Source: Oscillatoria sp. FACHB-1407 (GTDB lineage: Bacteria > Cyanobacteriota > Cyanobacteriia > Elainellales > Elainellaceae). From it: a DNA stretch of 64,000 nt. The DNA lies in the NCBI RefSeq assembly GCF_014697545.1, contig NZ_JACJSA010000003.1:248001-312000 (forward strand), written 5' to 3'. A model generated the notes under the pieces. It had not been told where the DNA came from. It ran no database searches and saw only the letters and a list, made by a program, of their open reading frames with translations. Shown piece by piece: positions 12,418 to 56,826 of the stretch. The first letter of the stretch is position 1. Each line of letters starts with the position of its first letter. The translations under genes were made by a program, and so were the position numbers.

Positions 12418-12828
12418 AGAACTAGCCAGACATGCAGTAACACCATGCTACTCCGATTTCTCAGTTGACCCCTCGCATCAAACAATTTTGTTATGTTACT
12501 CAGTTCTCGGTTAAGGTACAGCGAGAATCCCATCGATTGGCGTTGGATGCTAGGTGATATGAGGTTCTAGGCTAGCAATGCTTCAGGTTTTCTACGTAGC
12601 AGAGTGATATTCTAAGTCAATTTTTTCCAACGTTTTTAGCCATTACTTTGCAGGTAAGTAGGAAGTAGCGTAGCGTTATACCGATTTAATGTTTGATTGT
12701 GGCAGATCAGTGGGTAGGGGCGTTTCGCGAAACGCCCTTACGGAATCATGTGCAGCGAAGCCAATTCAAATTGGTATTATCAACAGTTCCACCCCTGATG
12801 AACACAGATTTTAGAGAGGACATGGAAG
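12418..12828. other. Intergenic region carrying a 100-bp MITE-like repeat
   Basis: The divergent spacer between the Uma2 gene and the cupin gene. Apart from the 100-bp repeat at 12678-12777 I see no RNA gene. GAGAGGA just upstream of 12829 probably serves the cupin gene. Confidence 0.5.
12678..12777 (+). mobile_element. 100-bp MITE-like element, copy 1
   Basis: Matches 19617-19716 base for base as far as I can read. The ends are imperfect inverted repeats (ATACCGATTTAAT against ATTCAAATTGGTAT), and the sequence between the terminal TA dinucleotides is CCGATTT...AAATTGG, as expected of IS630/Tc1-type MITEs. The centre is a perfect 20-bp palindrome, GGGCGTTTCGCGAAACGCCC. Confidence 0.85.
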
Positions 12829-19612: not shown

Positions 19613-19616
19613 TGTA

Positions 19617-19716
19617 ATACCGATTTAATGTTTGATTGTGGCAGATCAGTGGGTAGGGGCGTTTCGCGAAACGCCCTTACGGAATCATGTGCAGCGAAGC
19701 CAATTCAAATTGGTAT
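19617..19716 (+). mobile_element. 100-bp MITE-like element, copy 2
   Basis: No mismatch to 12678-12777 that I can see, with the same orientation of the central palindrome and TA at both ends. It abuts the 167-bp repeat at 19716. Confidence 0.85.
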
Positions 19717-19882
19717 AACGTCAGTTCAGTTGAAGAGCCTGGCGAATGAATTCGCGGCTACTAGAGCGAAGTCCGCCGACGCGAACTCCGGAAAAGGCAG
19801 GATTTGACGAACCGACGCAGGTCGGTTTTTCTTCTACAGTAGCGGTTTTAACCGCCGAAATCCTGATCCCGAATTCACGTTA
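19716..19882 (-). repeat. 167-bp interspersed repeat, full copy
   Basis: Reads (minus strand) TTAACGTGAATTCGGGATC through CGGCGGTTAAAACCGC-type, CCGACCTGCGTCGGTTCGTC and TTCGCCAGGCTC motifs to AACTGACGTTA. Several short internal inverted repeats suggest a foldable RNA or single-stranded DNA. Confidence 0.8.
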
Positions 19883-20083
19883 AATGGATGAATTTTGTAG
19901 GGTGTTTCGTGAAACGCCCCGACAGCAGCGGTCAGTTTTTGAGAATTATATCTGCATTCAGAAACTCAACAAACCGCTTGTCAAGCGGTTTGAGCCCGTG
20001 CTGTTCCAGCCTTGATTAACAACAGACACTCTACCGTTAGCAGTTAACAACTGACGATGAGCGATGGTGATTTAAAGATAGCT

Positions 20084-29834: not shown

Positions 29835-30056
29835 GGAGTGGGGAGGAGTAGGGAGTAGGGAATGGGGAGTAGGGGAGTAAAGCTTGAATGTGTCCAGAAT
29901 TTCGTGTAAAACCCCATTCTGTCTTCGCTCTAACCTCATGGGATGAAGTCTGCTAAATCAGATTAGGAGAGGTTCTCAGTCCACTTTAGTGAACTTTGAA
30001 AGGTAGCCCGCCATGGATGCGTGGGTGGATGGGAACGGTAACAGACACACTTTAAT

Positions 30057-30224
30057 TTAGAGTGAGTTCGGGATAAGGATTTCAGCGGTTAAACCCGCCG
30101 CTATCGGAGCAAAACCGACCTGCGTCGGTTCGTCAAATCCTGCCTTTTCCGCAGTCCGCGTCGGCAGACTTCGCTCTAGTAGCCGCGAATTCATTCGCCG
30201 GGCTCTTAAACCGAACTGACGTTA
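30057..30224 (+). repeat. 167-bp interspersed repeat
   Basis: Full copy in plus orientation: GAGTTCGGGATAAGGATTTC, CGGTTAAACCCGCC, CCGACCTGCGTCGGTTCGTC, GAATTCATTCGCC and AACTGACGTTAA in order. Confidence 0.85.
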
Positions 30225-30261
30225 ATTTACGTAGCCAAATCAGAGAACTTATCCTTTATCC

Positions 30262-32441: not shown

Positions 32442-32546
32442 TATAGCCGTAGCCACATTCAATGGGGTAGAGGCGAGTCAGAAAGCTCCCCTAGAAGCAG
32501 GATTTGAGCCGTAGCCTTTGCCTTAAGCTTTCTGACCAAAGCCATA
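32442..32546 (+). repeat. 105-bp TATAGC-family repeat
   Basis: Begins TATAGCCGTAGCCACATTC and ends CTGACCAAAGCCATA; the same length and landmarks as 44884-44987. Lies downstream of both convergent... flanking genes' ends/starts in the AI-2E to cryptochrome spacer. Confidence 0.8.
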
Positions 32547-36294: not shown

Positions 36295-36799
36295 GGATAA
36301 ATCTCCTTATCTGCGATTGGATTGGGTCTGAGAACGAACTGCAACCGCCCAGTTTGAGGGGATGGGGCGATCGCATGTTTCGTAGTTGATATAGCTACGG
36401 TCACCAGCATTAGAACGGAGTGCAGGGGTGAAACCCCTTAGCTGAGGACACTGCCCTAAACTCCCTGTGTCCTAACTTAACGTGAATTCGGGATCAGGAT
36501 TTCGGCGGTTAAACCCGTCGCTATCGAAGCAAAACCAACCTGCGTCGGTTCGTCAAATCCCGCCTTTTCCGGAGTCTGCGTCGGCGGACTTCGTTCTGAT
36601 AGCCGCGAATTCATTCGCCGGACTCTTAAACCAAACTGACGTCAACTTAGATGGCGGTAGCTATCGCGCTCGTTAAATTAACTCAAGTAGTTAAACAACT
36701 GTTTAACTAAGACCAATATAACATTAGTTCTTGGAATTTGTGAAGTGACAGACGGGATAGGGCGTTTTGCACTACCTTTAATGTCTCGTCATCTGATGT
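36295..36799. other. Intergenic region before murB end
   Basis: Contains a GC-rich repeat copy (36417-36471) and a full 167-bp repeat (36477-36644). Otherwise nothing recognisable. Confidence 0.6.
36477..36644 (+). repeat. 167-bp interspersed repeat
   Basis: Plus orientation, close to the 30057 copy. Begins TTAACGTGAATTCGGGATC and ends AACTGACGTCAA. Confidence 0.85.
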
Positions 36800-41900: not shown

Positions 41901-42128
41901 TATAGCTGTAGCCACATCTGATGGGGCGGAGGCGAGTCGGAACGTTTCCCCGGAATCAGGGTTTGATCCATTTCCTTTGTCCTAAGTACAACTCGTCGTA
42001 AATAAGGGTGGGAATTTGGGATGCAGGGGTTCTACCCTTGGCTAGGGGCGTAGTCCCCACACCCTCCTGGTTTTATTTCCAAACCCTATCTGTGAATAGC
42101 CGTATTAAGCTTTCTGATTAAAGTTACA
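41901..42128 (+). repeat. 105-bp TATAGC-family repeat, interrupted
   Basis: The left part (TATAGCTGTAGCCACATCTG to TTTGTCCTAAG) and right part (TTAAGCTTTCTGATTAAAGT) match the family, but ~118 bases are inserted between about 41986 and 42104, containing a GC-rich AGGGGCGTAGTCCCCACACCC repeat. Confidence 0.65.
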
Positions 42129-42186: not shown

Positions 42187-42301
42187 TATAGCGATCGCCA
42201 GAACCGTTAGGGCATTGGATTTGAATCCTGCCGAGAGAGACGCGATTAATCGCGTCTGTCCTGTTGAGTACCTTATCTTAACTGAGGTAACTACGGCTAT
42301 A
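42187..42301 (+). mobile_element. 115-bp TATAGC-ended element, copy 1
   Basis: Starts TATAGCGATCGCC and ends GTAACTACGGCTATA, giving TATAGC inverted ends. About 88% identical by eye to 52034-52148. Centre holds GACGCGATTAATCGCGTC. Confidence 0.8.
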
Positions 42302-44080: not shown

Positions 44081-44785
44081 TTAACCCAGGACGGCTCCAT
44101 GGGATAGCTGTAAGGCTAAATCAGTTGCTTCACTCAAGTTGTTCACAATCCAGTCGGGTTGATATTGCAGGAGTTGGGTGCGATCGCGAATCCCGCACAG
44201 CACAGCAATGATCTGAATGCCGTGGGTTTTGGCAGCGATAATGTCGGCTTCTGTGTCCCCAATCATCCAGGTTTGTGAGACGGGGATCAGTTCAGCCAAT
44301 GCTTGCTGCATGAGCAGGGGTTTGTCTTGCACATCAGTGGTTTTGACGTAGTCGTTGCTGAGGCAATAGCGGCGATCGCTGGCGAAAAAACGGGCAAGAT
44401 CGTAGCGATCGAAGGCATCCTGTAGCTCACGAACGCGCCGCAGAGTCATGACCACCAGATCGATCTGACTTTGATTTTGAAGACGCTCCAGGGTGGCGAT
44501 CGCCCCTGCAACAGGCGTGTCGTATTTGAGGTAAGGCAGGGTGTGAACCGTTTGTCGCCGTAGTTGGGCAAATTGTTCTGCTTGTGACTCATCTAATCCT
44601 GACATCAGCCCGATTTGTCGTTCAGGAACTTGCGATCGCTTGAGTTGCCAAAATTGAGGCTTAGATAAGATGGTGAGCGGTTGCCCTGGATGTTGCACGG
44701 TGTCTAAGCAGAATCGGTAGACTCGGTAATATCGCTCAGAGACATCCATAATGGGACCGTCAAAATCCGTAATAATTCTTATCAT
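44081..44785 (-). CDS. HAD-superfamily hydrolase
   Basis: 234 residues. Motif I: IITDFDGPIMD (DxDGP), motif III region VVMTLRR, motif IV QTWMIGDTEADIIAAKTHGI. The helical cap lies between (YRVYRFCLDTVQ...). This is the phosphoglycolate phosphatase-like Gph/PPase subclass, but the substrate is unknown. ATG at 44785. Convergent with the CPP1-like gene; a GACGCAGCA...TGCTGCGTC inverted repeat sits in the 83-base spacer. Confidence 0.92.
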   Translation of the reverse strand: MIRIITDFDGPIMDVSERYYRVYRFCLDTVQHPGQPLTILSKPQFWQLKRSQVPERQIGLMSGLDESQAEQFAQLRRQTVHTLPYLKYDTPVAGAIATLERLQNQSQIDLVVMTLRRVRELQDAFDRYDLARFFASDRRYCLSNDYVKTTDVQDKPLLMQQALAELIPVSQTWMIGDTEADIIAAKTHGIQIIAVLCGIRDRTQLLQYQPDWIVNNLSEATDLALQLSHGAVLG

Positions 44786-44840
44786 GCAAACCGCATTCCT
44801 GGGGAAAAGTGTAAATTTTTATTGCTCTCAAATCCTATTA

Positions 44841-45106
44841 AACCTGAGTTCGGGATCAGGATCTTGGCGATTCAAACCACAGCTATAGCCGTAGCCACAC
44901 TCGATGGGGCGGAGGCGAGTCAGGAAGCTTTCTCAGCATCAGGGTTTGAGCTATTGCCGTGCCTTAAGCTGTCTGACCAAAGCTATACGAGAGCAAAACT
45001 GACCTGTGTCGGTCACCGAACCTTGATTTTTCGTAGTTCGCCTGTGCAGACTTGGCTCTAATAGCCGTGAATTGATTCGCCAGGTGTTTAACCTGAATTG
45101 ACGTTA
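44841..45106 (+). mobile_element. 167-bp repeat with a 105-bp repeat inserted in it
   Basis: The outer element starts AACCTGAGTTCGGGATCAGG and ends GAATTGACGTTA. After AAACCACAGC, where other copies continue straight on, a complete TATAGC...GCTATA element (44884-44987) intervenes before CGAGAGCAAAACTGACCTG resumes. Confidence 0.85.
44884..44987 (+). mobile_element. 105-bp TATAGC-family repeat, nested copy
   Basis: Inserted at a TA of the outer 167-bp repeat; TA flanks both sides. Confidence 0.8.
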
Positions 45107-45341
45107 TTAAAGTATGGCGATGGTATCTGTGAATAGCCTCTACGTTTTCCGATGACAAAACCTCGACTTGAACCATCAAGCCGAGGTTTAGTTTTTATCC
45201 CAACGCTAACTAATTCATATCCAGAAACTGGATTGACTAGTACAGCAAAAAATAAGTTTTGAAAGGGGTGAAGGGGTGGAACCCCTTCTTGAGGGCGAAG
45301 CCCCCAAACTCCCTACATTGCAGAACTTTGTGTTCGCAACA

Positions 45342-45839
45342 CTAGTAGAGTGCCCGCACAGGTCCTGTCGGTGCTGGAGGCAGTGCGGTGGGTGCAGGAA
45401 TCGTCTCTAAGCCGAAGTCATTGGGCGGAATATTGCTGGTGGTTTCGGTGGCGGGTAACAATAACAAAGAGGTGTCAAATGGATTAGAGACATCGGCCGT
45501 GCGAATCAGGGGATCACTTAATGCCTGTTGAGTGAAAACCTCTCGATACACTCGATTGACCGCTCGACCATCTCCGGCAATATTGTTTTCTGGAAAGGGT
45601 CCAATGATCCAGGTGATATTACCTGGAATGCCACGATTATCGTAAAAGTTTCCACTTCTTCGATAGTAAGCATCTTGAAATGCTTCCCAAATAGCAGGTC
45701 GCTCAGCTGCCTCATTTTGAGGCGTTTCATCGTCTGCATTTTGAGCAACAGCGGCATTCACAAATACCAGTGAGGAGACGATGAATGTGGCTAGACCCAC
45801 TAAGTTTTTTGACCTCACGCCCATAAATTTAACCCTCAA
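45342..45839 (-). CDS. Small secreted protein, function unknown
   Basis: 165 residues. Signal peptide (GLATFIVSSLVFVNAAVAQNA). Mature part: EAFQDAYYRRSGNFYDNRGIPGNITWIIGPFPENNIAGDGRAVNRVYREVFTQQALSDPLIRTADVSNPFDTSLLLLP, and a Pro-rich tail. I recognise no family; its length and context suggest a conserved periplasmic protein. ATG at 45839 (RVKFMG; a later Met is also possible). Confidence 0.8.
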   Translation of the reverse strand: MRVKFMGVRSKNLVGLATFIVSSLVFVNAAVAQNADDETPQNEAAERPAIWEAFQDAYYRRSGNFYDNRGIPGNITWIIGPFPENNIAGDGRAVNRVYREVFTQQALSDPLIRTADVSNPFDTSLLLLPATETTSNIPPNDFGLETIPAPTALPPAPTGPVRALY

Positions 45840-51454: not shown

Positions 51455-51605
51455 AGTTGCCCCTAATCCTCACACGAGAGAATTTTACTGGTGGATGCAG
51501 TTTGTAAGAAGTACCCACTTGGGGTATTTACAGGGGTAGTACCAAGGCATGTTCTGAAGCTCCTTTCGGGGAGCATTGTCCCCAAGATTCAGGATTTTCA
51601 ATAGA

Positions 51606-51773
51606 TTAACGTCAGTTCGGGTTAAGAGCCTGGCGAATAAATTCGCGTCTACTAGAGCAAAGTCCGCCGTCGCGGACTCCGGAAATGGCAGGATTTGACG
51701 AACCGACGCAGGTTGGTTTTGCTCTAATAGCGGCGGTTTTAACCGCCGAAATCCTGACCCGAATTCACATTAG
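51606..51773 (-). repeat. 167-bp interspersed repeat
   Basis: Reverse orientation; CCGGAAATGGCAGG and GGCGGTTTTAACCGCC match the copy at 19716. Confidence 0.85.
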
Positions 51774-51822
51774 ATTAGGGCTAACAGATAGCAACCCATG
51801 GGCAGGGGGGCAACGCTTTTGA

Positions 51823-52033: not shown

Positions 52034-52148
52034 TATAGCGATCGCCAAAACCATTAGGACATTGAATTTGAGTCTTGCCGAGAGAGCCGCGATTAATCGC
52101 ATCTGTCCTGTTGAGTGTCGCGTCTTAACTGAGGTGACTACGGCTATA
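52034..52148 (+). mobile_element. 115-bp TATAGC-ended element, copy 2
   Basis: Same length and ends as 42187-42301, with scattered mostly transition differences. Confidence 0.8.
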
Positions 52149-56725: not shown

Positions 56726-56826
56726 TATAGCTTTAGTCAGAAAGCTTAAGACAAAAGCAATGGTTGAAACACTGATTTTAGGGGGTTTCCTGACTCGCCT
56801 CCACTTTATCGGTGGCTACGACCATA
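56726..56826 (-). repeat. 105-bp TATAGC-family repeat, reversed
   Basis: TATAGCTTTAGTCAGAAAGC at left and GGTGGCTACGACCATA at right; minus-strand copy of the family. Confidence 0.7.

Follow-up and report, generated by a model that had tools for sequence, protein, structure and literature searches.

The window, a 64,000-nt stretch that corresponds to C3:248001-312000 of an 8.13-Mb cyanobacterial genome in 66 contigs, contains a nested pair of short repeats at 44842-45104, between two minus-strand open reading frames. Read directly from the sequence, an outer repeat of about 161 nt is split there by a 104-nt segment. The site is laid out as follows.

44081-44785, minus strand: open reading frame, with its start codon at 44785
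44836-44841: left target duplication of the outer MITE, TATTAA, read directly (duplications of 7-8 bp are a property of the family)
44842-45104, plus strand: outer MITE copy, interrupted, with ends ACCTGAGTTCGG...CTGAATTGACGT compared with the family ends ACGTSARTTCGG; 161 nt without the insert and the second TA
44884-44987, plus strand: inner MITE, TATAGC...GCTATA (TATAGCCGTAGCC...CCAAAGCTATA), the coordinates including the duplicated TA at each end
44884-44885: left TA, target duplication of the inner MITE
44986-44987: right TA, target duplication of the inner MITE
45105-45110: right target duplication of the outer MITE, TATTAA, read directly (again with 7-8 bp as the family property)
45342-45839, minus strand: open reading frame

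The left part of the outer copy stops with ...AACCACAGC at 44883, and the right part restarts with CGAGAGCAAAACTGACC... and has ...TTGACGT as its last bases at 45104. The direct repeat TATTAA around the copy is 6 bp long. If the outermost TA pair is a target duplication, the inner element proper is 44886-44985 (TAGC...GCTA). The first-pass annotation had reported a 167-bp repeat interrupted by a complete TATAGC...GCTATA element with TA at both junctions, and this is what is read at 44884-44987. The insertion of an element also stands, but the 105 bp given for it is the length of the family consensus, and the window insert has 104 nt.

The window inner MITE is 95.2% identical to its family consensus, and the window outer copy is 77.8% identical to the outer consensus. 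When the insert and one TA are removed, the flanks fit the outer consensus with a gap-free junction, and the two gaps in the alignment fall elsewhere. Because this copy is diverged, one TA and two cannot be told apart by its alignment score alone (131 vs 133). In a whole-genome search, a query spanning the window junction had its only full-length match in the window itself, and the next-best matches covered either the outer or the inner part. Near the nest, a 103-bp GTACAGC...GCAACAC element lies in CTAG at 45240-45342 (plus strand), at the stop-codon end of the minus-strand frame 45342-45839.

We searched for further copies of both families, as the first-pass annotation had proposed. Whole-genome searches gave at least 40 matches for the inner element (at E<=1e-3) and at least 40 for the outer query. 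In the 2.46 Mb that we read directly, 30% of the genome, the inner family has 71 full-length copies and the outer family 44, all of the latter uninterrupted; an even extrapolation to the whole genome gives about 235 and about 145 full-length copies, respectively. The exact two-ended inner pattern occurs in 40 places, compared with 0 for a reversed-pattern control. When the inner copies are aligned, TATAGC and GCTATA are kept and the flanks beyond them are near-random, with a mild T/A preference just outside the right end. The terminal inverted repeats, TATAGCCGTAGCCACA and TATAGCTTTGGTCAGA, are imperfect (TATAGCNNTNGNCANA). With a length of 104-105 nt, no coding capacity, many dispersed copies, conserved ends, unrelated flanks and terminal inverted repeats, the inner element has the features of a MITE. 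Most of its copies stand alone, surrounded by unrelated flanks. Other copies in the window are the following.

32442-32546, plus strand: inner MITE copy, un-nested
56726-56826, minus strand: inner MITE copy, un-nested
41901-42128, plus strand: inner MITE copy split by another short element (41985-42104, AGTACAACTC..., in CTNAG)

The fold of the inner consensus is unremarkable (z of -1.55 and -0.46), an Rfam scan of it returned zero families at threshold, and the family had no match in the plasmid collection. The 2.46-Mb sample contains about 90 TATAGC...GCTATA pairs within 200 bp, 26 of which are inner copies; the others form several further groups. One such group consists of 115-bp elements at 42187-42301 and 52034-52148, with the ends TATAGCGATCGCCA and TATAGCCGTAGTYACCTCAGTT, which are 88% alike.

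The outer repeat is a MITE of a different type from the inner one, a point absent from the earlier account. It is about 164 nt long and dispersed, with inverted ends and AT-rich duplications of 7-8 bp. All seven positions of the duplication match in 10 of 22 copies, and the mean match is 5.05, compared with 3.61 for shuffled pairs and a highest shuffle mean of 4.32 in 2,000 shuffles. The duplication of TA that is typical of IS630-type elements is not found around the outer element, whose copies carry the longer duplications instead. Uninterrupted copies in the window include the following.

51602-51777, minus strand: uninterrupted outer copy that carries GCGAATTTATTCGCC, the empty form of a nest on contig C1 (C1:543110-543460, below)
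30053-30229, plus strand: uninterrupted outer copy, used as query, with the 8-bp duplication TTAATTTA
36473-36649, plus strand: uninterrupted outer copy
19716-19885, minus strand: uninterrupted outer copy

Other cyanobacteria also have the outer end and some internal hairpin-like stretches, with mostly partial matches in 35 of 386 genomes, this one included. We looked for a parent IS through the widely shared end AACGTCAGTTCGGTTTAA, and none was identified. In another cyanobacterium (G336), several contig ends, including the starts of its C11, C13 and C14, have AACGTCAGTTCGGTTTAA at a distance of no more than about 80 bp. This would be expected if AACGTCAGTTCGGTTTAA terminated a longer IS whose repeated copies interrupted the assembly, and it is a lead to the outer parent. 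A 103-bp repeat occurs at 12675-12777 and 19614-19716 in two copies that are 99% identical, one of which abuts the outer MITE at 19716. This repeat is probably recent.

The inner element had been called an IS630/Tc1-mariner-like MITE, with no transposase of this kind in the window. The window indeed lacks an IS630-type transposase, and the genome as a whole holds few IS630 loci. On contig C44 there is a 1,120-bp IS630 element (931-2050 of the stretch read) with the ends TATAGCAATCCTAAATCATTTGTG and TATAGCGATCCTAAATGATTCATG, that is, with TATAGC ends and TA flanks. Two overlapping frames of this element match HTH_33 and DDE_3 and jointly span positions 1-288 of NF033545, each frame singly falling below the model cut-off. 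Its transposase is encoded in these two frames and is possibly made by frameshifting. A 93-bp MITE family, of which the 2.46-Mb sample contains about 10 full copies, has about 27 bp of the C44 element end at 89-93%, which ties TATAGC ends with TA flanks directly to IS630 in this genome.

The end that the inner family has in common with the C44 element is TATAGCNNT only (TATAGC and the T at position 9). The IS630 transposase with matching ends that the first-pass annotation suggested seeking was thus found as far as the TATAGC ends go, but the longer end of the inner family is unmatched. No IS sharing that full longer end was found in the genome. The other IS630 loci (on C37, C4 and C36) are partial or broken and showed no matching ends, and TATAGC end pairs 700-2600 bp apart in the 2.46-Mb sample included no credible IS with inner-type ends. 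Judged by its ends and target, the inner element is best classified as an IS630/Tc1-mariner-type MITE, as first proposed. Movement of the IS630 type is likely rather than proven, since the end sequence and target fit but the inner family shares only the short end and no IS with its longer end was found. Both the assignment of the enzyme to the IS630 family and its identity within that family are our inference.

The inner element could instead have been moved by another transposase family that uses TA or TATA, such as part of the IS5 family. This would suit both the missing autonomous partner and the small similarity of the inner-type end (TATAGCYKTRGYCANA) to the resident IS630, a hexamer and one base. 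We consider it unlikely, because within this genome an IS630 element and the 93-bp MITE tied directly to it show the same combination of TATAGC ends and TA duplication.

TATAGC elements occupy other outer copies at different TA dinucleotides, and the same signature is found at three outer positions. In a second nest at C1:543110-543460 (inner element at C1:543267), the arrangement is GCGAATT-TA[inner]TA-TTCGCC, in another part of the outer copy. The alignment with one TA is the best there (122 vs 116 and 115), and the window copy at 51602 supplies the empty paralog of the site. The third and cleanest nest, at C1:443324-443429, has a related 106-nt TATAGC element in GGT-TA[..]TA-AAACC; with one TA kept, its host aligns gap-free over 166 of 166 columns at 92.8% identity. 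The earlier claim that TA is the target and is duplicated is borne out by the window nest and by both C1 nests (with a related element at C1:443324), each compared with empty paralogs.

These empty sites are paralogous only, because no close relative with an orthologous empty site was found. Empty TA sites in relatives, suggested as a check, were not seen among the 60 relatives searched, which included no genome of the same genus and gave two weak matches. An even draw of 386 genomes from the phylum gave a match in the organism's own genome only. An exact scan with a 23-base end located seven stretches in cyanobacteria other than this one, among them Stenomitos frigidus ULC18 and Leptolyngbyaceae MAGs. 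The copies there are diverged or partial, and no transposase was seen paired with the ends in these stretches.

An inner end is joined to the outer element at one junction in six places. Four loci have a hybrid that begins with the left end of the outer element and contains the same truncated inner element (positions 65-1), all with the same left breakpoint.

C4:77330-77600: hybrid of outer and truncated inner element
C9:254761: the same hybrid, with its right end cut short
C7:76956: the same hybrid
C8:163543: the same hybrid

Three of the four are flanked by distinct 7-8-bp duplications (TAAGGCTA, TACCCCTA and TTAGTTA). The presence of the hybrid at four loci, three with their own duplications, indicates that an outer element carrying an inner one moved as a unit and that the outer element was active after the insertion. 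The inner part of the hybrids lies opposite to the window orientation, apparently in the same TA, so the window event was a separate one.

Without any transposition, two repeats could also be brought together by recombination, or by a switch of template in the course of repair. Repeats this dense do recombine, and some neighboring pairs are one-sided or truncated (C2:115011, C5:56832). In the window, however, the insert lacks nothing at either end, the duplication is of exactly one TA and the outer sequences on the two sides are collinear, and the recurrence of this signature at three outer positions likewise makes such an origin very improbable. More doubtful still is the idea that the TATAGC segment is an ancestral internal module of the 167-bp family that was deleted from most copies: the hybrids do hold an inner remnant inside an outer element, but they carry it truncated and in the opposite orientation, so the window copy does not descend from them. 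The window junction occurs once in the genome, and TATAGC elements sit at several different outer positions while most inner copies are found alone. The first-pass annotation had favored insertion over a module, naming a segment carried by most outer copies as the sign of the latter. What we found is the 44 uninterrupted outer copies, together with the unique junction, and for the window copy the module is rejected.

The first-pass annotation also took the nest as evidence that the 167-bp family is the older one, a claim that the data do not support. The median identity to consensus is 93.0% for the outer family and 90.1% for the inner, so the outer family shows no greater divergence overall, and the hybrids were copied to at least four loci. 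Within the nest, the much greater divergence of the host copy from its consensus than of the insert from its own does indicate that the host copy is older. The window nest orders those two copies only, not the families, whose periods of activity overlapped. We think it quite likely that a MITE that had received another MITE was mobilized as a unit, and nesting would in this way be a source of new hybrid MITE families here.

Other short elements are also nested in the two families. Elsewhere in the genome, outer copies are split three times, at one site, by the CTAG-targeted element of the family found at 45240-45342. The copies of this element inside the three split outer copies are not visibly more alike than others, and the splits could reflect a preferred CTAG that was entered more than once, or the copying of one hybrid. 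An element with GGAGATTTC ends splits outer copies once and inner copies twice, and inner copies are also split twice by the CTNAG element, at 41985-42104 in the window and at C2:134146-134244. The GGAGATTTC...GAAATCTCC element is about 90-95 bp long, has an apparent TAA/TTA duplication and lies in outer and inner MITEs at C5:299880-300180, C5:306800-307060 and C4:191410-191690. No outer element was seen inside an inner one in the 2.46-Mb sample, which is weak evidence because the events are so few.

Short mobile elements of several kinds resemble the inner family in part. Nezha, which Zhou et al. reportedly described in 2008 (cited in PMC10969869 and PMC3049150), is a cyanobacterial MITE attributed to a resident ISNpu3-like IS type; the resemblance is by kind only, both being cyanobacterial MITEs. 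The Type II MITEs of Anabaena sp. 90 are 77-541 bp long and present in many copies, with ends unmatched by a resident IS (PMC3542288). They are like the inner family, by description, in being cyanobacterial, short, multicopy and without a matching IS (PMC3542288). ISY100 of Synechocystis PCC 6803, a member of the IS630 family, has TA as its almost exclusive target and duplicates it (PMC2170065). It shares with the inner MITE the TA target, the TA duplication and imperfect inverted repeats, but it is an autonomous element of 947 bp with 24-bp ends (PMC2170065), whereas the inner MITE encodes nothing. RUP of Streptococcus pneumoniae is an IS630-related MITE of 107 bp with ends like those of IS630-Spn1 (PMC3049150). 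It differs from the inner family in sequence and host, and it has a matching IS in its own genome, whereas the inner family matches the resident IS630 by the terminal hexamer and one base only.

Both families with their ends, both target duplications, the uninterrupted paralogs and the recurrence at other TA dinucleotides are directly observed. The window feature is very probably a nest of two non-autonomous MITEs of different types, the outer arriving first and the inner later entering a TA, likely through an IS630/Tc1-mariner-type transposase. The outer MITE would have been inserted first, between 44836 and 45110, by a transposase making 7-8-bp AT-rich duplications (here TATTAA). Later, the TATAGC...GCTATA element would have entered a TA within this outer MITE. 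For this step, an IS630/Tc1-mariner-type transposase supplied in trans would have excised the inner MITE and joined its 3' ends to the TA with a 2-bp stagger, the repair of which would have duplicated the TA. A host function is neither needed nor indicated for the nest. One among several in this MITE-crowded genome, it is an ordinary event and not a new system.

The paralogous empty sites document TA-duplicating insertion of cyanobacterial MITEs, and the consensus sequences and ends of the families can now be tested. Genome annotation gains as well, since several hundred of the repeat copies here can now be given a name and masked. A single nest calls for caution in inferring the ages of families. 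The hybrids are a worked example of nesting that produces new non-autonomous elements.
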